DNA of 34,772 nucleotides from a virus. The notes below the pieces were generated by a model. It was not told the origin of the DNA. It did not search any database and saw only the letters and a program-made list of their open reading frames with translations. Each line of letters begins with the position of its first letter. Position 1 is the first letter of the stretch. The stretch is from positions 1 through 34,772 of IMG/VR virus record IMGVR_UViG_3300029263_001075; one strand, written 5' to 3'. The translations under genes were made by a program, and so were the position numbers. Positions 6,118 to 34,119 of this stretch are shown piece after piece.

Positions 6118-9100
6118 TTATTTTTTAACTATAGTAACACTGAAACCAAACGATTCAGAGAAACCTGTTCTTTTATTATATATTAGCCTTAAATCAAATG
6201 GGTTTGTATTTATAGTTTTTGATGATACATTATTATTAATACTTAAACCAGCTGTTATTTTTTGTAAGTTATTTAATTTAGCTGTGCTAAAATCTGATGG
6301 AACATCAGAGCGACTAGCTAATGTATAAACATCAACATTATTTACTTTATAAAGCTTTAATATATTTTCTTCTATATATCTATTTACATCATCATCTAAT
6401 GTCTCTAAATCACCCCAACCAAATAAAGGATTTACATATTTTAAAAACTCATCTTTAATAGGTTGAAATAAAAATTCCTTTAATTGCTTTTGTATTAATA
6501 AATAAAAATTAATTACAGGCGGGGATGCTTGTTTTTTAATAGCTCTTGTATTATTAATTCCAACTGTATTAATTACTGGTTTGTTTATAATAACTGACGA
6601 TATGTCTTGATGCATAAAAGTACCATTAATTAAATCAGGTTGTTTAATAGCAGCCTTAATAAATGGGTCAGGTGAAAATGTTTCTAATAATATTTCTTCA
6701 GGTACTTTTAAATATTTAGACCCAAAAAATGATTTCTTTTCTTTCATAGAACGTGTGCCGATAATAGATTCTATTAAAGTTTTGTCAATACTTTTAATAA
6801 AATAAGATGGCTCCCAGTTTGAAGAGAATACATAAAAATCTTTATAATCAATACCTATTTCTTGAATTAATGGATAGAGGCTTGAAAATGCAGAATCAGC
6901 CGATAACTCTAAAATAGTTGACGGGTCTTGTTCATTCACCTTATGATAAAAGAAATTTTGCAATTGCCCAAAATTATCGTCTGCGCTATTAAACTGTGTG
7001 TTAGACCATTTACATAACTCTAATACCTTTAATTTATAAGCCTCATCATCAACACCACCAGTAATACCACTATTAAAATCAATATTTTCATACGGATCTC
7101 TGAAAGATAATATTGACAATGCAGTCGGCTGATAATAACCAGCATGCCTAGCAATAGGTGTTATTCTTGGTTTAGTTTGTAAAGATAAATCAAAACCAAT
7201 AACATCAGTTAAGTTAAATACAGTCGGCTTGGCAGGATCAGGTAAAATTCCAATATAAACAGACTTAAGAATATCCTCTTGTGATCTTAATTCTATCCCA
7301 AAAGTTTGTGATAAACTCCCATCACTATTTAAAACTCGGTTTCCACTACTATCAATAGTTTCATATATAACGATAGGGTTACCTTGATTAACTGAATCAA
7401 ATATTTCTGCAAAGCCTATATTAGTTAATCTATTCTCGTAAGCATTATAACCACCACCCAGGGTTTTGTAGGTAGCAGCCTCAAGAAGATTACGAGAAGG
7501 GTTGTAGCTAGGTATGTTATAACCGATTGGAGGAAAACCAAAAGGTGATGCTGTTACGGCTGAGGCCAATAATTGATTTTGTGAAATTATTGAAGTAATT
7601 CCAGTTATTGTAAATGTGGTGGTTCCTACTACAAATTGAATAGGTGAATACTCCCCATTTAATCCTACCGTAATATCATCAAAGAATCGAGTAGGTATTC
7701 CGTTTGCATCAGGTATTCCGTTTATTCGGAACTCATCAACAGTAACATCATAGTATGATGAAGCAAAATTAATAGCTCCTTGCATATTCCCATCTAAATA
7801 ACCAGCCGGGATACTGGGTGATACTGGTGCACAAGAAGCGTCTACTTTGTATTTACTATTTAAAGAATATAAACTTGTTCTATCTATAATAGATTGTGCC
7901 CCAGGACCATTAATACAGGGTTCATCAAAATTTAAAGATATAAACATTACAACAGTTTTCCATTTATCATTTTTAATAAATTTAATTTCTGTCTCTGGTT
8001 TGTCAGGTGCATTTGGTACTAGTATAGCAGAAAAGCGATAATCATTAAAGTTTCCATTTTGTACATATGATAATGATCTTGCATTAAAATCTGGTTTTTC
8101 GTTTCCGATTGCTTTTGGTTTTGCAATAATCCTAACACCTCTTAAAAAGGCTTCTGCAAAATTTTGATTATTCCCACCACTAAATCTACCATATCTTAAT
8201 TGCCTATCAATTTCAGTTATTCCACCAGTTGTAAATCTCTGAACTATAAAGTAATCATTAAATAAGTCCTTGTCAGTTCGCTGAAATGTTCCTGGTACAT
8301 ACGCCTGCCCCGTTAGTGGGTTTGCTAATATGCTGTCGGTTGGTGCAGTATCAATATAACTCCATGAAGCTTTTATGCTGTTGGTAGTAAAATATTGTGG
8401 GAATTCTGATAAGTAATACCATTCATGAGTATAACCACTGGCAACTTGCCCTCTGTCATATTTAGATGGTGCAAAATTATTTAAACCAAACGCTTCTGAT
8501 AGATCTAATCTATATGGGTGATTTCTTACATCTTTACCATCATTTAACCAACTCCACTTATTAATGTAAGGAATTATTCTAGATGACGTAGCTTGTGATG
8601 TTAAAAAGTTTTCCTCTAATCTAGTATATTCAGATGAAATGTATCCCTGTGATTCATTCTCAGGATTAGAATCCTTTAATAAACCAATTAAATTAAAAAA
8701 ACCACCATTATCATAAAACCCTCTTATGTCAGGATTTGAGCTAATACCAGTATAATTTGGTGGATTACTACCGGGTACTGATTGATTGTATTCACTATCT
8801 TCACTTTGTAATTCACCTTCTTCACTATATAAGGTACTATAAAAATCAGAATCAAAGTCTCTAACATCAAAAAACGAAAACCTCCCAAACGATGGCTTAT
8901 AATCCGAATAAAGAGCAACTTGATTAGATCTCGTAACCATTAATTGATTATCATCACATGTTATAATAACATATTTGTCAACATCAGTATATCCAATTAT
9001 AACCCCAGCTGGGCTATAAATAGGTTCATCTGTATAAGGGACCCAATTACCTATAGTTGTAAAGCCACCTGTTGTTTGAACAAAATTTCCTTTTATGAAT

Positions 9101-10821
9101 CTATCTTGATCTCCTATTACTACTTTAAGTAAACTGTTAGATACATCATTTCCACCTATAAAGTTTTTAAGTGGGTTTGCCACACTCGTAACTGGATATG
9201 TTTCTATATCAACAAACATTTCTGGATAATTTATATCCATTTTAAAGTTTAATTGATTAAACCTAGATCCAGTAAAACGTGATTTAATATAAACAGTATT
9301 ATCATTATAGCTTGCTGAAAAGAATCTCTTACCTTCATCTATACCAAAATTAATTGCAGATGTAATAGCTTTTGCAACTTCCTCTAATGAACCCTCCGGG
9401 TTAAAAAATCTTTGATTTGATTTACCAGGTGTTGGTACTAATGTAGCAGAAGCAACAATATTACCAGTTAGGTTTACGCCATCATAAAAAGATATACTAG
9501 CACCATCTTGAATATTATCTAAAATCTTTAAATACATCTGTGCATATCCCTTATGCCCAAGAACGCTTGCGTTTGCAAAAGTATCAGGTGTCTTATATCC
9601 AGTTAATAAAGATATATCTATTTTTTTATCAAATAATCTTAACTGATCTGTTCCCCATAATGATCCTTTTTTAAGTGTATGAAAATTATCTAATTTATCT
9701 TTTACATAAAATATTGACTCTACCTCATCTACTCTCGTAGGTGTTGGTATTCCAGTAATTGTTGTAGTTTTCGTAGGATCTAAGAAAAGTAAAATACCTT
9801 CTTTGTTTGTTATTTCAAATGGTGTATTTAAAGATTGTGATACCTCAGTTATAGTTTTAATTTTTGGTAATTGTGATCTTTCAGTATTTTTAAAAAAACC
9901 AATTCCTGATAAATCAAAGTTACCCTCCTCGACTTCATTAACATACATACCAAAGTAACGATTAATTGAATAATCCTTTGCATTAGGATCATCAAACAAA
10001 AATTCCATATTTAATAAGTTAGCTAATAAAATACCGTTATTTTGAAAACCTTGAGTAAATACATACTCATTTTGCATAATGGTAGCATCTTTCGTAACTA
10101 AATCATTGTATGCATAACTACCGCTACTAGTAAAGCCTCCATTTTTATAAGATATACCATTCCATAAAATAGGCTCATCCTTTCTCCATGTTATATTTAA
10201 TGGAACCTCTGGAAATTCTTCTTGATTTCTATAATTTCTAATGTATGAACCTAATGCAGTACCTTCAGTTAAATCAAACGTTTTAATTGCAGTACAATTT
10301 TCTAATACTTGTTTTGAAAATTTACTTGCAGTTTGTGCATCAATTGTGCTATTAGGTGTATTTTCAATAATAGCATTTACCTTATTTACAGCAGAAGGAT
10401 CGTCTAACCTAAAAATTACAAATGAATTCGGTATTTGTTCATTTAACCACAGGGGTGCTAGCATCCCTAAGCTTTGTGAATAAGATTCAGATGCAATTGA
10501 CCTAGTCCCAGCACAATAAAACATTTCATATTGATTACCATACTCAGATAACACAGAAGTATCTTCATATTCTTGAAATACTTCGTATGCTGATTCAATA
10601 GGAAACTTTCCACTGTTAAAAAACCGATACACATCTCTATCATATGTATCCGATCCATCAACCTTAAATGCTTTATATCGTTGAGCAGATAGCGCAGTGT
10701 TAGCACTAAATGAATCTAAATAAATATCTGTTCCATCAGATACTAATTTAACATTACCAGTTAATTTAGGGTTAGTTCTAATTACACTATATGATGCTTT
10801 ATCTAATAGTTTTTCAGCCAT
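6118..10821 (-). CDS. Very large baseplate or tail-fibre structural protein (1567 aa)
   Basis: This is the longest gene in the window. The N-terminus (RTNPKLTGNVKLVSDGTDIY) has a pattern I associate with giant virion proteins of large myophages, but I cannot give a firm family name. The body is beta-rich with many Asn/Gly/Tyr turns and no enzyme motif. Near the C-terminus, residues 1516-1526 (LNNLQKITAGL) match a motif at the end of the 1277-aa neighbour (LNDLEKVIAGL). The gene has its own promoter-like box and a 10-bp hairpin directly before the start (10823-10862), unlike most genes here. Position after the wedge genes and before the collagen-like fibre suggests an outer baseplate or fibre-base part, by analogy with T4 gp9-gp12 placement. 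Confidence 0.75.
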   Translation of the reverse strand: MAEKLLDKASYSVIRTNPKLTGNVKLVSDGTDIYLDSFSANTALSAQRYKAFKVDGSDTYDRDVYRFFNSGKFPIESAYEVFQEYEDTSVLSEYGNQYEMFYCAGTRSIASESYSQSLGMLAPLWLNEQIPNSFVIFRLDDPSAVNKVNAIIENTPNSTIDAQTASKFSKQVLENCTAIKTFDLTEGTALGSYIRNYRNQEEFPEVPLNITWRKDEPILWNGISYKNGGFTSSGSYAYNDLVTKDATIMQNEYVFTQGFQNNGILLANLLNMEFLFDDPNAKDYSINRYFGMYVNEVEEGNFDLSGIGFFKNTERSQLPKIKTITEVSQSLNTPFEITNKEGILLFLDPTKTTTITGIPTPTRVDEVESIFYVKDKLDNFHTLKKGSLWGTDQLRLFDKKIDISLLTGYKTPDTFANASVLGHKGYAQMYLKILDNIQDGASISFYDGVNLTGNIVASATLVPTPGKSNQRFFNPEGSLEEVAKAITSAINFGIDEGKRFFSASYNDNTVYIKSRFTGSRFNQLNFKMDINYPEMFVDIETYPVTSVANPLKNFIGGNDVSNSLLKVVIGDQDRFIKGNFVQTTGGFTTIGNWVPYTDEPIYSPAGVIIGYTDVDKYVIITCDDNQLMVTRSNQVALYSDYKPSFGRFSFFDVRDFDSDFYSTLYSEEGELQSEDSEYNQSVPGSNPPNYTGISSNPDIRGFYDNGGFFNLIGLLKDSNPENESQGYISSEYTRLEENFLTSQATSSRIIPYINKWSWLNDGKDVRNHPYRLDLSEAFGLNNFAPSKYDRGQVASGYTHEWYYLSEFPQYFTTNSIKASWSYIDTAPTDSILANPLTGQAYVPGTFQRTDKDLFNDYFIVQRFTTGGITEIDRQLRYGRFSGGNNQNFAEAFLRGVRIIAKPKAIGNEKPDFNARSLSYVQNGNFNDYRFSAILVPNAPDKPETEIKFIKNDKWKTVVMFISLNFDEPCINGPGAQSIIDRTSLYSLNSKYKVDASCAPVSPSIPAGYLDGNMQGAINFASSYYDVTVDEFRINGIPDANGIPTRFFDDITVGLNGEYSPIQFVVGTTTFTITGITSIISQNQLLASAVTASPFGFPPIGYNIPSYNPSRNLLEAATYKTLGGGYNAYENRLTNIGFAEIFDSVNQGNPIVIYETIDSSGNRVLNSDGSLSQTFGIELRSQEDILKSVYIGILPDPAKPTVFNLTDVIGFDLSLQTKPRITPIARHAGYYQPTALSILSFRDPYENIDFNSGITGGVDDEAYKLKVLELCKWSNTQFNSADDNFGQLQNFFYHKVNEQDPSTILELSADSAFSSLYPLIQEIGIDYKDFYVFSSNWEPSYFIKSIDKTLIESIIGTRSMKEKKSFFGSKYLKVPEEILLETFSPDPFIKAAIKQPDLINGTFMHQDISSVIINKPVINTVGINNTRAIKKQASPPVINFYLLIQKQLKEFLFQPIKDEFLKYVNPLFGWGDLETLDDDVNRYIEENILKLYKVNNVDVYTLASRSDVPSDFSTAKLNNLQKITAGLSINNNVSSKTINTNPFDLRLIYNKRTGFSESFGFSVTIVKK

Positions 10822-10822
10822 A

Positions 10823-10862
10823 TTTATCTTTTACTTTTTTTATATATTCACCAAAAGATAAA
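10823..10862 (-). promoter_or_regulatory. Hairpin with promoter-like box in its loop, before the 1567-aa gene
   Basis: On the transcribed strand, TTTATCTTTT (10862-10853) and AAAAGATAAA (10832-10823) are perfect 10-bp reverse complements, extended by one G-U pair. The loop holds AATATATAAA (10848-10839). The 3' arm ends 1 nt before the ATG at 10821. RNA read through from the 1277-aa gene could fold and hide the start. RNA begun about 6 nt past the box would lack the 5' arm. No U-tract follows, so it does not look like a terminator. Confidence 0.65.
10839..10848 (-). promoter_or_regulatory. T4-late-like promoter box AATATATAAA
   Basis: This is an exact copy of the recurring 10-mer, preceded by G as at the amidoligase and gp25 genes. 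It lies 18 nt before the ATG of the 1567-aa gene. If it is used like a T4 late promoter, RNA would start near 10833 and give a leader of about 12 nt. Confidence 0.55.
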
Positions 10863-14730: not shown

Positions 14731-16845
14731 TTATTTAACTATATCATATACGAAAGTTAATACTCCTTGCTCTGTACAAATCAGATCAATAATTGGAATA
14801 TTACTTAAGTCCGTGTTCGGTATAGTTGCAGCTAATTTACCAAATGAACCATTATTTAGTCTACTTGGTGCATCAGTGTATATTAGTATGTTTCTTGATC
14901 CTATTAAAGGAACATTATTAAATGTTAATCTTAATGTTTGCCCAGTTCTCCATTGAACATCAGTATCATTAATATAAATAGCTAAATTACCAGCAGCAGT
15001 ATTAATAGTATCTAATCGCAGCATATTTGTATATGTTGCTAAATCTGCAAACACTGATGGGTTAACTACATTTAAATTTAATGGTGCAGTTGCTGTAATT
15101 TGAATATCACTATTATCTAAAGGTACTATTAAATTATATGCTTGCACGTTATTTGATATTTGTATTTGATTAGGGGTATTAGTATTAACTGTAATACCAG
15201 TTCCTTGTCTAACCACATCTGTATTATATTGTAGTGTTGTAGCAACCTCACCATTTGCCAAAGACTGAATCTCATCAGAGTTTTTAGCAATTAAATCTAA
15301 TAATGTAGTACTACTTGCAAATGCTAATGATGCATTATCAATTTGAGTTTGTAAACTATTAATTTGAGATTGTAAAAATGCAGACGTACTAACAGAGTTG
15401 AGTGTATTTTCAACAGCGGCTAATCTAAGTTCTATATCAGTAATTTCTAATTGCTGTCTTTGGAATATTTGTGCTGATGCTTGTAATTGAGCAGTTGCAT
15501 CTGAAAATAATCCCATTGAAAAAGTATTATAATCATTTACAATAGTATCAATTCCAGCTGATCCAGGAGAAGCATCAAATCTTAAATTAATTTTAAAACC
15601 ATAACTGTTACCATTTTGCCCAGTTGTACGATTAGGTTTAAATTTTGGGTACCTTTGTATAAATCCACCATCAGTGGTAGGTGTTACATTATCCAATAAC
15701 AAAATACCATATAAATTAGTTTTTGTTTTATTTGAATCACTTAAGTCTACCATATCATAATAAACCAGCACTGCGTTAAATTCAAACGATTCGGCTAAAT
15801 CAGTTCCATTAAATTGTGGTATTGTACTTATAGTAGCATCTTGTACAATTTGTTGATAATCATTAGGATTAAAATCTACACTAATACCGTCCAGTTCACT
15901 TCTTACATATGCAGAACCGCTATAACCTGACGGGTTATTATAATCAGCAGGGTATTTTCTAATATTAACATTTAGTGGGCTTGTAAATGTATTAGGTTCT
16001 GTAAAATAAGAATCTACAGTATTAGGTGGTGTTGTTTCATCCATCCAGTTTGCATTAGGATCTGTATAACCAGCAGGCCCTGTACCTTGTAATGCCTCAT
16101 CATAATCATAAAATGCAAACATATCCAAACCTTGTGGGTGAACACTTGCAGAATTCCTACCAGCAATAAATTCATTACTACCTTGTATTTTTAATGAAGG
16201 TTGATAATTCGTATCAGATATAGAATCAAAGAGGACTGTAGGTGTTCTACCTACCTCTGTCGGTACATTAATATACAACTCAGTATACGCCTCTCCGGCC
16301 TTGTCTACATTATTTACAATATCAATTTCACCAATATATCTAACTACTCTGTTATAAATCCTAGTCCCAGCTGTAACCTGGTCTTCTTCAACAAACCTAG
16401 GGGTTGTTATACCACCAGCTTTTTCCAGAACAGTAGCTTCACGGAATCTCATTGCTCCGCACTCTTTAAGCCATTTAAAAAATACTCTCTCTGTTACAGT
16501 TAAGTTTGTTGTGTTGTCATACCCTGCATCACTAATTATAAGCTCCTCTAAATTAAGTGCGTAATTTTGAAGACTTTGTGTAAAATTAACATTAGGATCT
16601 GCCTTCAGTCCCCCATTCCAAATAGATCCGTCAATTGTATCAAACTGCATATAGTTTTCAAAATTACTAAATGTAGTTGGATCTAATTTATCAAAATCTG
16701 GTAAATTAAGAAGCACAAACTTAGAAAAGACTAATTTAAGATCATCATTATTGAGAGTCCTAGACAAGTCTCTAGCGGATGAAGAGAACGTGTAAAATGT
16801 TCCACCATCTGCTTGTGGGGTTCTGATTAAGGGCGTTGTTGCCAT
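14731..16845 (-). CDS. Baseplate/tail structural protein with central coiled coil (704 aa)
   Basis: Residues 1-430 form a large mixed domain (VFFKWLKECGAMRF at 121-134; LYGILLLDNV at 378-387). Residues about 450-510 are a clear coiled coil with regular Leu/Ile spacing (QQLEITDIELRLAAVENTL). The last 190 residues are beta-rich and resemble a fibre tip or carbohydrate-binding-type sandwich. This is consistent with a trimer held by the coiled coil. In T4 the genes after gp7 encode gp8-gp12, the outer wedge and short-fibre proteins, so an analogous role is plausible. The length and sequence do not let me equate it with gp8. The leader is TTAAAGATAAAAACTATAC before ATG. Confidence 0.75.
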   Translation of the reverse strand: MATTPLIRTPQADGGTFYTFSSSARDLSRTLNNDDLKLVFSKFVLLNLPDFDKLDPTTFSNFENYMQFDTIDGSIWNGGLKADPNVNFTQSLQNYALNLEELIISDAGYDNTTNLTVTERVFFKWLKECGAMRFREATVLEKAGGITTPRFVEEDQVTAGTRIYNRVVRYIGEIDIVNNVDKAGEAYTELYINVPTEVGRTPTVLFDSISDTNYQPSLKIQGSNEFIAGRNSASVHPQGLDMFAFYDYDEALQGTGPAGYTDPNANWMDETTPPNTVDSYFTEPNTFTSPLNVNIRKYPADYNNPSGYSGSAYVRSELDGISVDFNPNDYQQIVQDATISTIPQFNGTDLAESFEFNAVLVYYDMVDLSDSNKTKTNLYGILLLDNVTPTTDGGFIQRYPKFKPNRTTGQNGNSYGFKINLRFDASPGSAGIDTIVNDYNTFSMGLFSDATAQLQASAQIFQRQQLEITDIELRLAAVENTLNSVSTSAFLQSQINSLQTQIDNASLAFASSTTLLDLIAKNSDEIQSLANGEVATTLQYNTDVVRQGTGITVNTNTPNQIQISNNVQAYNLIVPLDNSDIQITATAPLNLNVVNPSVFADLATYTNMLRLDTINTAAGNLAIYINDTDVQWRTGQTLRLTFNNVPLIGSRNILIYTDAPSRLNNGSFGKLAATIPNTDLSNIPIIDLICTEQGVLTFVYDIVK

Positions 16846-24181: not shown

Positions 24182-24183
24182 TG

Positions 24184-24213
24184 GAGAACACTAATTTTTT
24201 ATTATATATTCTC
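24184..24213 (-). promoter_or_regulatory. Hairpin overlapping promoter-like box, before gp25
   Basis: In RNA sense, GAGAAUAU (24213-24206) can pair with GUGUUCUC (24191-24184) over 8 bp including two G-U pairs. The 3' arm ends 2 nt before the gp25 ATG. The 5' arm covers the first half of the promoter-like box, so RNA begun downstream of the box could not form the stem. It is weaker than the hairpins at 10823 and 26408, but has the same geometry. Confidence 0.4.
24201..24210 (-). promoter_or_regulatory. T4-late-like promoter box AATATATAAT
   Basis: The box lies 20 nt before the gp25 ATG in a 60-nt gap, preceded by G as at the amidoligase and 1567-aa genes. A start about 6 nt past it would leave a leader of about 14 nt. 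Confidence 0.5.
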
Positions 24214-25111: not shown

Positions 25112-26404
25112 TTATATTTTTTCTATTTCAATAATTTCTGTGTTTTCAAATTTAGCAAAATCAGTAGCTCTACCTTTTCTAAAAATACCACCTTCCATAT
25201 CTCCACTAAATACACCTCTCACACCAAATACATATGAATCTTTACACATGACATTTCTTGCTACATATGAATCTTCAATCTTAGAATCAGTAGCTTCAGT
25301 AGCACCAAACAAATTACTTTCAGTAATTGATGAGTTAACTAATTCTGTACTAAATATATCACAATTTAAAATATTACCTTGTATTTTAGAATCAACGATA
25401 TCAAATCCTTTTATTTCAAAGCATTTCATTAACTCTGCACCTTTAAGTTGCATTCTACCAGTATCTGCATCGTAATTAACCAAACCTTCTTTTAATCCAG
25501 CCTTAGTTAATAATTCGAATAAAGGTTCCCTCATTTTAGGGTAATAAGTTTCAATGATTTGATCTGCTGTTTTTAAATCAACCATTAGATTAATTTTAGG
25601 AAACTTTTTCTTAAATGCTTGGTAATCTTTATAAGACTCTACAATACCTTTATGCTTTTCTAATATAACATCTAAATTTTTAATGTCTTCTGCATTATAA
25701 ACAGGATCAGTTAAACTTTCATATAGTGATATCACGAAATGTTCTGTCATATTCATTATGGTATTATATTTCTTTTCATAATCTTTACCACCTAAATATC
25801 TAAATTCAATATAATTTTTTGGTATTTTAGAAAAGTTTACACCATAATATTTCTCAGAAACAAACATGTAATTTTGCCAGGAAACTCTACCTGGTGAAGG
25901 TTGTGTCATGCCGCTTAGTGGTAATATAAATTTTATAGATTTAGCATAAACAGAATCTTTTCTGTCTGGGAATGCTTCATATACTGCATTTTCATTAAAG
26001 TTAAGAACAAACTTACCAATATCTAAAGATGATACATTAGTAGGGGTTCCTAATTTTTTGCCATCAAAGGCAATATTAATATGTATAGAGCAACGGTCAT
26101 TAGTAGATCCATTTTCTCTTATCCATTTTAAAGTTTTTGCAATAATAAGCTTTGATTCAACAAATGGCATTGGCCCAGTTACTAATTCAATCATACCACT
26201 ACCACCAGAATTATCTGGTTCTAGTTTAAATATTTCATCACTTGGTGTAAATTCACTGTGGGCTTTTTCTTCAATTCGTATTTGCTTATTAAGAGCATTG
26301 GATAAGCTATATTTAACCTCATCCATCCCTTCGTTTGCAAAGAATTCAAATTCTAATCCAATCTTGGATGAATATATTGCATTTAGCTGTTCGTTAGTAT
26401 ACAT
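25112..26404 (-). CDS. Amidoligase-fold enzyme with C-terminal beta-helix-like repeats
   Basis: A 430-aa protein. The N-terminal 210 residues carry the spaced motifs of the amidoligase (COOH-NH2 ligase, glutamine-synthetase-like) group: IGLEFEFF (15-22, acidic E18 and E20), MIELVTGPMP (71-80, E73), DRCSIHINIA (103-112, H108) and NYIEFRYLGG (197-206, E200, R202). This group makes amide bonds using ATP and metal. The family often has HxH where this protein has H108-I-N110. A helical linker follows (210-330). Residues about 330-425 are short, pentapeptide-like repeats (GNILNCDIFSTELVNSSITE and on), suggesting a beta-helix. Substrate is unknown. Candidates are phage tail proteins or host surface peptides. 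It has its own promoter box and a strong hairpin at its start. Confidence 0.7.
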   Translation of the reverse strand: MYTNEQLNAIYSSKIGLEFEFFANEGMDEVKYSLSNALNKQIRIEEKAHSEFTPSDEIFKLEPDNSGGSGMIELVTGPMPFVESKLIIAKTLKWIRENGSTNDRCSIHINIAFDGKKLGTPTNVSSLDIGKFVLNFNENAVYEAFPDRKDSVYAKSIKFILPLSGMTQPSPGRVSWQNYMFVSEKYYGVNFSKIPKNYIEFRYLGGKDYEKKYNTIMNMTEHFVISLYESLTDPVYNAEDIKNLDVILEKHKGIVESYKDYQAFKKKFPKINLMVDLKTADQIIETYYPKMREPLFELLTKAGLKEGLVNYDADTGRMQLKGAELMKCFEIKGFDIVDSKIQGNILNCDIFSTELVNSSITESNLFGATEATDSKIEDSYVARNVMCKDSYVFGVRGVFSGDMEGGIFRKGRATDFAKFENTEIIEIEKI

Positions 26405-26407
26405 GTA

Positions 26408-26441
26408 ATTCCTGATTTGTTTATATATTCAAACCAGGAAT
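26408..26441 (-). promoter_or_regulatory. 12-bp hairpin whose loop is the promoter-like box, before the amidoligase gene
   Basis: In RNA sense, AUUCCUGGUUUG (26441-26430) pairs with CAAAUCAGGAAU (26419-26408): 12 bp with a single G-U pair. The loop is exactly the 10 nt AAUAUAUAAA. The 3' arm contains the only good Shine-Dalgarno-like AGGA here and ends 3 nt before the ATG at 26404. The element fills the 40-nt gap after the S1-like gene. Read-through RNA should fold and hide the start. RNA begun at the box would lack the 5' arm. There is no U-tract, so a terminator is less likely. Confidence 0.75.
26420..26429 (-). promoter_or_regulatory. T4-late-like promoter box AATATATAAA in hairpin loop
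   Basis: Exact copy of the recurring 10-mer, 16 nt before the amidoligase ATG. A start about 6 nt past it would begin RNA inside the 3' arm and leave a leader of about 10 nt holding AGGA. Confidence 0.6.
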
Positions 26442-26444
26442 AGG

Positions 26445-27587
26445 TTATGCTATGTTCATTGTAATCTTACGATCACTAACATTAACACTCCCGATTTTTA
26501 TATTTACTATATCACCTTTAGATAAATCAGCTCCTTTTAATTTAGACTTATGGATTAAACCACTAATACCTTTCTCTAATTCAACAAATGCACCATAGGA
26601 AGTTATTTTTGTAACCTTACCTTCAGTGATCATCATAGGTTTGTATTTTTCGTCCACCCCATCCCATAGATCAACTTTAGGACCTAGTTGGCTTAATATG
26701 ATTTTTCTATCAGATATTACTTCCTTTGCCCAGAAGTTAATTTCATCACCAGGTTTTATTGTTCTGTTATCTAATGCAATTTGGAATTCTTCGGTTAATT
26801 CAGCCCTAGGTATTAATCCTGTTAGACATTCATCAAATTCAGCAAATACACCAAATTTAGTAGTACCTGTTACGAATCCTATTCTAGGTTCTTTAATAGA
26901 TTCATTTAATTTTTCAATTGTAATTGGAATCATTGTCCTTAAATATTCACGATGTGATACAACGATAGTATCCTTTTCTCTAGAAAATGTAATTGGCATA
27001 ACAATAATATCTTTATTTACTATTGCATTAAAATCATGTAATTTATTTAGCCCTGCTAAAGATCCTGGCATAAAACATTTAATACCTGCAACGTCCACCC
27101 AATAACCTCCGTGAATTAATTCTTTAACTCTTGCAGTAAAGCCAACTGCTGAATTTCCAATAGCATCTTTTATTTCTTTTAACTTAACTTCTTTTATAGC
27201 ATCTGAGATAGAAGCAATAACATCACCGTTTTTTTTGTTAGTTTTAATCTTAACATCAATTTCCATACCAACCTGTAATTGTTCTACAATATAATCAGGT
27301 TCTTTTGCTAAAACGCAATATGCAGTATATTTAGATTCAAAATCAATAAGTGCTCTTTCCCCATCTTTACTTATAAAGGATATCTCGCCTTTAGTAATAT
27401 AACCTATGTTATCTTCTATTAATTGGGTCTTCTGTAATGTAGGGGCAGATACTGCATACATTGCTAATACGTCAGGTGCATAATGTTCATTGCACATTAA
27501 CTTTGTTCCTTCAGGGACTTGTACTTTTACTACTTTTGTGTCAAATGGATCATCACTTAATTGGATTGTGATTTCTTGTTCGGTCAT
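26445..27587 (-). CDS. Ribosomal protein S1-like protein with four S1 RNA-binding domains
   Basis: A 380-aa protein. Four S1 (OB-fold) units are visible: a degenerate one at about 62-128, a second at 146-212 (YWVDVAGIKCFMPGSLAG and TIVVSHREYL, the signature of domain 2 of bacterial S1), a third at 233-300 (GFVTGTTKFGVFAEF, LTGLIP), and a classic fourth at 319-380 (GKVTKITSYGAFVELEKGIS, GLIHKS). Cellular S1 usually has about six domains and binds both the 30S subunit and mRNA. This copy is shorter but keeps the ribosome-side pattern of domains 1-2 plus two RNA-binding units. It lies inside a baseplate operon with its own promoter-like box. It may steer ribosomes to phage leaders. It could also be a virion part, but S1 homology is clear. 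Confidence 0.85.
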   Translation of the reverse strand: MTEQEITIQLSDDPFDTKVVKVQVPEGTKLMCNEHYAPDVLAMYAVSAPTLQKTQLIEDNIGYITKGEISFISKDGERALIDFESKYTAYCVLAKEPDYIVEQLQVGMEIDVKIKTNKKNGDVIASISDAIKEVKLKEIKDAIGNSAVGFTARVKELIHGGYWVDVAGIKCFMPGSLAGLNKLHDFNAIVNKDIIVMPITFSREKDTIVVSHREYLRTMIPITIEKLNESIKEPRIGFVTGTTKFGVFAEFDECLTGLIPRAELTEEFQIALDNRTIKPGDEINFWAKEVISDRKIILSQLGPKVDLWDGVDEKYKPMMITEGKVTKITSYGAFVELEKGISGLIHKSKLKGADLSKGDIVNIKIGSVNVSDRKITMNIA

Positions 27588-27614: not shown

Positions 27615-27624
27615 ATTATATATT
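27615..27624 (-). promoter_or_regulatory. T4-late-like promoter box AATATATAAT before the S1-like gene
   Basis: The box is 28 nt before the S1-like ATG, in the longest gap of the window (89 nt, 27588-27676). A 5-bp inverted pair (TTAAG/CTTAA) flanks it, too short to rely on. Predicted leader is about 22 nt and A-rich. Confidence 0.5.
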
Positions 27625-27944: not shown

Positions 27945-27954
27945 TTTATATATT
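27945..27954 (-). promoter_or_regulatory. T4-late-like promoter box AATATATAAA before the 82-aa gene
   Basis: In sense direction the site reads TATAAATATATAAAC, so it also contains the exact T4 late consensus TATAAATA (27958-27951) one step upstream. It overlaps the stop codon of the spike gene by 1 nt and lies 20 nt before the ATG. A 6-bp pair (TTAAAT/ATTTAA, 27967-27962 and 27934-27929) encloses it, a weak stem with the same geometry as the stronger hairpins. Confidence 0.55.
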
Positions 27955-34109: not shown

Positions 34110-34119
34110 ATTATATATT
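34110..34119 (-). promoter_or_regulatory. T4-late-like promoter box AATATATAAT before the 602-aa gene
   Basis: The box lies 18 nt before the ATG at 34092 and overlaps the last base of the 187-aa gene stop. No convincing hairpin surrounds it. Predicted leader is about 12 nt. Confidence 0.5.

Follow-up and report, generated by a model that had tools for sequence, protein, structure and literature searches.

The window analysed here, i.e., a whole stretch of 34,772 nt of viral DNA (IMG/VR record IMGVR_UViG_3300029263_001075), carries on its minus strand a gene for a 380-aa S1-domain RNA-binding protein (26445-27587), which is followed co-directionally by a gene for a 430-aa protein (25112-26404). 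The gap of 40 nt from the S1-domain stop codon (26447-26445) to the ATG at 26404 reads CCT-ATTCCTGGTTTG-AATATATAAA-CAAATCAGGAAT-TAC-ATG on this strand. Its two arms, ATTCCTGGTTTG (26441-26430), beginning 3 nt after the stop codon, and CAAATCAGGAAT (26419-26408), form 12 pairs including a single G-U (G26434 with U26415) and enclose a loop of 10 nt (26429-26420), which holds the putative late-promoter motif AATATATAA at 26429-26421. The 3' arm covers the translation start region, with 3 nt (26407-26405) between the stem and the ATG, and the predicted fold energy of the hairpin is -13.3 kcal/mol. Thus, the anatomy described by an earlier note on this DNA, a 12-bp stem with one wobble around the exact loop AATATATAAA and 3 nt before the ATG, was confirmed by the sequence, as was its remark that the wobble is a G-U pair in the transcribed sense only. 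An Rfam search of the window gave no match, and terminator-like sites were found nowhere on the transcribed strand between 23000 and 34772, including the 40-nt gap.

The designation of the downstream gene as an amidoligase gene, proposed in the same note, agrees with its homologues, 12 of 18 of which match Amidoligase_2 (PF12224; best E 2.7e-5), whereas the window protein itself is unmatched. Structure prediction gave a confident beta-solenoid for the C-terminal part of the 430-aa protein (pLDDT mostly >80 from residue 290) and a poor model for the Amidoligase_2-like N-terminal part; a PDB search yielded no match below E 0.001. The gene adjoins baseplate genes. The S1-domain gene, immediately upstream of the hairpin gene, likewise belongs to the structural gene block, and homologues of its product occur in Lak phages and in the huge phages LR7565xx. 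A role of this protein in translation start is conceivable.

A 12-bp stem alone is not rare in such DNA, because a mean of 0.75 stems per strand (at least 12 bp, at most one G-U pair, loop of 4-20 nt) is expected from whole-strand dinucleotide shuffles of this AT-rich sequence (n = 12). Stem length was therefore dropped as stand-alone evidence, and the earlier assessment of the hairpin as very unlikely by chance stands only for its placement, with a promoter motif in the loop and a start codon close to the 3' arm. Among the five longest stems of the real strand, two (26441-26408 and 10862-10823) sit over gaps bearing AATATATAA, and the non-coding share of the window amounts to only 2.6%. With the 3' flank fixed and the 5' flank shuffled, an equal duplex was obtained in none of 300 trials.

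The loop motif AATATATAA is found upstream of six of the 23 window genes. Its distribution in a related 181-kb contig (G001) supports its reading as a late-type promoter spread over the whole genome: of its 31 copies, 22 are followed after 5-45 nt by a same-strand start, compared to one of 31 for the reverse complement and 0-4 of 16-25 copies for unrelated AT-rich nonamers. A similar enrichment was seen for AATAAATAA (11/17), and none for the T4 late-promoter octamer TATAAATA (6/54 near starts). As the enriched motif is AATATATAA/AATAAATAA and not TATAAATA, the promoter would act like a T4 late promoter without being one by sequence. The features shared with the T4 late promoters, which depend on gp55, gp33, and gp45, are an AT-rich -10-like element as the only element, a short leader and, in relatives, a gp55-type factor. 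Such gp55-like late sigma factors (phrog_234 matches) are encoded in G001 (15039-15404, 121 aa, E 3.8e-14) and in the 462-kb genome LR756500 (233213-233587, 124 aa, E 1.7e-12). In contrast to T4 gp55, these proteins of 121-124 aa stop before the C-terminal clamp-binding segment, with IYTI/IYSI as their common ending, and are accompanied by a different promoter motif. The gene is known from these relatives and is not inside the 34.8-kb window record.

Further copies of the motif in the window, all on the minus strand, precede the S1-domain gene (27616-27624; no start-masking hairpin), an 82-aa gene (27946-27954; no significant hairpin), a 120-aa baseplate-wedge-like gene (24202-24210; weak 7-bp pairing GAGAATA/TGTTCTC) and a 602-aa gene (34111-34119; a 6-7-bp stem in some relatives only). 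The GAGAATA/TGTTCTC stem (24182-24212) covers the start of this 120-aa gene, and part of the promoter falls within its 5' arm; the stem is variable in relatives and not above chance by shuffling. A hairpin at every late promoter was ruled out, such structures being present at two of six promoters in the window and four of 21 in G001, where the remaining 17 are without one. In the same contig, two more late promoters, ahead of an 86-aa gene (28061) and a 599-aa gene (133057), have flanks whose pairing is equalled by very few shuffles (p 0.013 and 0.027, respectively), and the stem TAGGTTA/TAACCTA at the 599-aa gene overlaps the stop codon of the gene upstream.

Besides, a second promoter-like class, whose upstream element is long, was noticed in G001 (L066-L075, e.g., at 90209, 105117, 105671, 106123, 107096, 114697, 117871, 123955, and 177315), consisting of AAATAAC, about TATAGTTCAGAATC, then ATTGATTATATTTATA(C/T)TA with near-fixed spacing before genes. 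They differ from the late motif and are probably promoters of the early or middle phase. The copy at 123955 stands ahead of the structural block holding the 430-aa gene and is co-directional with it. A third element, CTTTCAGA ... TTTTTTGTTATATTTAAATTA, precedes two genes at 78462 and 88670 of this contig. We infer the labels late and early for these promoter classes from the genes and from the gp55-like factor.

Proteins of the 430-aa type are encoded at 63 IMG/VR loci, and the leaders of 58 of these were compared together with that of the window. Wherever a locus includes an upstream region, the promoter element AATATATAAACAAATYAG is unchanged, and each of the 15 contigs searched for it has a single copy. 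Of the 59 leaders, 47 form the stem, with duplex energies between -11 and -19 kcal/mol (p ≤ 0.04 when compared to shuffled 5' flanks). In this stem-bearing clade, the 5' arm has stayed constant, but the spacer adjoining it varies. In the near clade, the G-U pair is retained in nearly all sequences. Changes from C-G to U-G were also seen. One group (L038) features a stem lengthened to 14 bp with outer pairs altered on both sides. Covariation in the stem core is weak, 88 of 500 shuffles reaching the paired percentage, because the core barely varies. The earlier note had expected that relatives would not lose the stem without compensation. This is borne out by the 47 leaders, but not by the other 12, in which gene and promoter are kept and the stem is missing without compensatory change; the stem at this gene is therefore lineage-specific. 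The compensatory changes it had anticipated were found in the outer pairs of the L038 group and at a second gene, and are weak in the core of the 430-aa stem. In the LR756500 orthologue (L065:19968, about 40% identity), the leader ends in TTTAATATATATTTAAATTATAATCTATAAT-ATG and features no AATATATAAACAAAT element.

This second gene (minus strand, 6118-10821) encodes a 1567-aa protein of unknown function (phrog_31887) and is preceded by a hairpin of the same layout (10823-10862). Its arms TTTATCTTTTG (10862-10852) and TAAAAGATAAA (10833-10823) enclose an 18-nt loop with the motif AATATATAA at 10848-10840, and the stem ends 1 nt before the ATG at 10821. From 80 loci, 42 distinct leaders were compared, 41 of which carry the motif and show a mean z of -2.2, with values down to about -5 in the distant clade. 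Near relatives retain the TTTATCTTTTG/TAAAAGATAAA stem. In distant relatives, a displaced 5' arm of the TTGATTTTCAC type pairs with GTGAAAATTAA, reaching -18.7 kcal/mol, and the AUG itself is paired. An alignment of 12 distant leaders showed 92.9% of cells paired, a count which describes the displaced-arm group because the leaders were picked from that type; slid partners reached at most 50%. Four pairs are double-changed, e.g., from A-U to G-C, and none of 500 shuffles equalled the alignment in paired percentage or in covariation score. In L185, the relative that has diverged most, the same position is occupied by an entirely different stem, and the distant leaders L182 and L184 have no good stem. 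Several contigs without the 430-aa stem, e.g., 3300042691_038096, L050, and L180, have the strongest one at the 1567-aa gene. The pairing pattern at this second gene provides the strongest evidence for selected pairing around the promoter. A comparison of sense and antisense stability was weakly supportive of RNA function at the 1567-aa gene (-2.37 vs. -1.13); at the 430-aa gene it did not discriminate between RNA and DNA function (cognate difference -2.12, mismatched flanks -2.23) and was discarded.

Folding predictions indicate what such pairing would do to the start. In read-through RNA, positions -12 to +3 of the 430-aa gene are predicted to be unpaired at 0.20 on average; of 21 window starts, this one has the lowest accessibility, and the 1567-aa start comes next. 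In RNA begun in or beside the 3' arm, the start region of the 430-aa gene is predicted to be 0.65-0.71 unpaired. The AGGA within the 3' arm, singled out by the earlier note, is probably no Shine-Dalgarno site, because the genes of these phages show none: GGAG, GAGG or AGGA stands upstream of 4/180 starts in G001 vs. 12/180 in a control stretch. This candidate was rejected on these genome-wide start contexts, and AGGA may be explained more simply by its pairing with UCCU of the 5' arm. The regions upstream of starts in these phages are A-rich. As Shine-Dalgarno sites are missing, the part hidden by the stem would be the A-rich start region.

The switch of T4 gene e, a textbook example known from T4 and its close relatives, represses translation of the long RNA about 100-fold. 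Start-masking helices in read-through RNA are known for T4 e, soc, 49, I-TevI, and segB as well as Aeh1 mobE, whose late promoters give RNA without the 5' arm (PMC3014915, PMC2988022). Gene e is the proven case, and some T4 relatives with this gene are also without the hairpin (PMC3014915). When the T4 e leader was folded as a control in the same pipeline, its loop ATAAATAC proved to be essentially the late promoter; thus, a promoter as the loop is T4 e anatomy. Both systems share a helix over the start in the read-through RNA and a late promoter inside this helix or on its 5' side, so placed that late RNA would not include the 5' arm, as any start downstream of the loop motif would drop this arm entirely; structure is also conserved in relatives, in 47/59 loci and by covariation at the second gene. 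Nevertheless, the genes concerned here are the amidoligase-like and the 1567-aa gene of a distant large-phage family, the motif is AATATATAA and not TATAAATA, there is no Shine-Dalgarno site to mask, and the closest promoter upstream belongs to the same class.

We consider it probable that the element operates as in T4 gene e, with an RNA hairpin that masks the start and holds in its loop the late promoter of the gene itself. Accordingly worded as a mechanism, polymerase arriving from upstream through the S1-domain gene would produce RNA with both arms, and the hairpin in this RNA would pair the stretch before the AUG and keep 30S subunits off. RNA begun at AATATATAA would be devoid of the whole 5' arm, so that its short A-rich leader and AUG would be free and the gene translated. 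If the spacing of T4 late promoters, with the TATA box from -13, applies here, the RNA would start at about 26412-26414. We infer promoter activity, start site, and repression of the read-through RNA from this arrangement. The earlier claim that the phage uses the same switch as T4 gene e is supported in its layout, stem conservation, predicted masking, and the gp55-like factor in a relative, but neither in Shine-Dalgarno masking nor in the split between early and late RNA, since the upstream S1-domain gene carries the same promoter motif (27624-27616). Production of the amidoligase from its own late promoter alone, as the note proposed, is to be read as a prediction. As the nearest upstream promoter is of this same late class, the switch would separate own-promoter RNA from any read-through RNA. 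For the same reason, the silenced RNA may be late read-through from upstream promoters, early RNA being the alternative. If it is late read-through, the hairpin would insulate the gene's output from its neighbors rather than time its expression.

The reading that survives best beside this switch, although we consider it unlikely, is translational coupling, according to which a ribosome finishing the S1-domain gene would cover the 5' arm and free the masked start. Both proteins would then be made jointly from one RNA, with the loop promoter as an extra entry. Such coupling is possible because 3 nt in the window, and a few nt in relatives, separate the S1-domain stop from the 5' arm, a distance inside the footprint of a terminating ribosome. 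However, the distance from stop to 5' arm at the second gene varies from about 0 to 37 nt while the promoter is always in the loop, a placement which coupling would leave as a coincidence at both genes. Improbable to a higher degree is an inverted repeat acting as DNA, the arms of which would be half-sites for a regulator of the late promoter, with RNA pairing as a by-product. The near-perfect palindrome centered on the promoter and the two strictly conserved arms of the near clade would fit such an operator. Nevertheless, the wobble pairs and the moving arm argue against it: almost every near-clade sequence retains the G-U, which would be a mismatch in DNA, changes from C-G to U-G occur as well, arm spacing and sequence at the second gene differ between clades with pairing retained, and the two genes share no half-site. 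We give very little credence to an RNA processing or stability element that protects the RNA or is cut in an RNase III-like manner and thus sets RNA ends; a 10-14-bp stem near a gene boundary would suit this function, which leaves unexplained both the promoter in the loop and the fact that at the second gene the 3' arm reaches up to the AUG or contains it. Least credible of all, and already largely refuted by the relatives, is an AT-rich promoter region that folds by chance, since, despite the 0.75 stems of such length expected per strand, the stem is conserved in 47/59 relatives with a constant 5' arm beside a variable spacer, and compensatory changes occur at the second gene.

Preferring the start-masking switch, the anatomy of T4 e seems to recur here at other genes of a distant marine large-phage family, with another motif and no Shine-Dalgarno sites. 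More tentatively, and with slightly more doubt than confidence, this family may possess a recurrent device in which, at several genes, a late promoter forms the loop of a start-masking hairpin, of an origin independent of T4 e and gained or lost gene by gene. It would restrict the synthesis of certain proteins to their own promoters even in co-transcribed late blocks. Moreover, the analysis identifies a putative late promoter motif for the family and a short gp55-like factor. The combination of a hairpin with a loop promoter also offers a sequence signature for searches among uncultured phages. If the proposal is true, a promoter within a start-masking loop would be a general way of tying translation to promoter choice.
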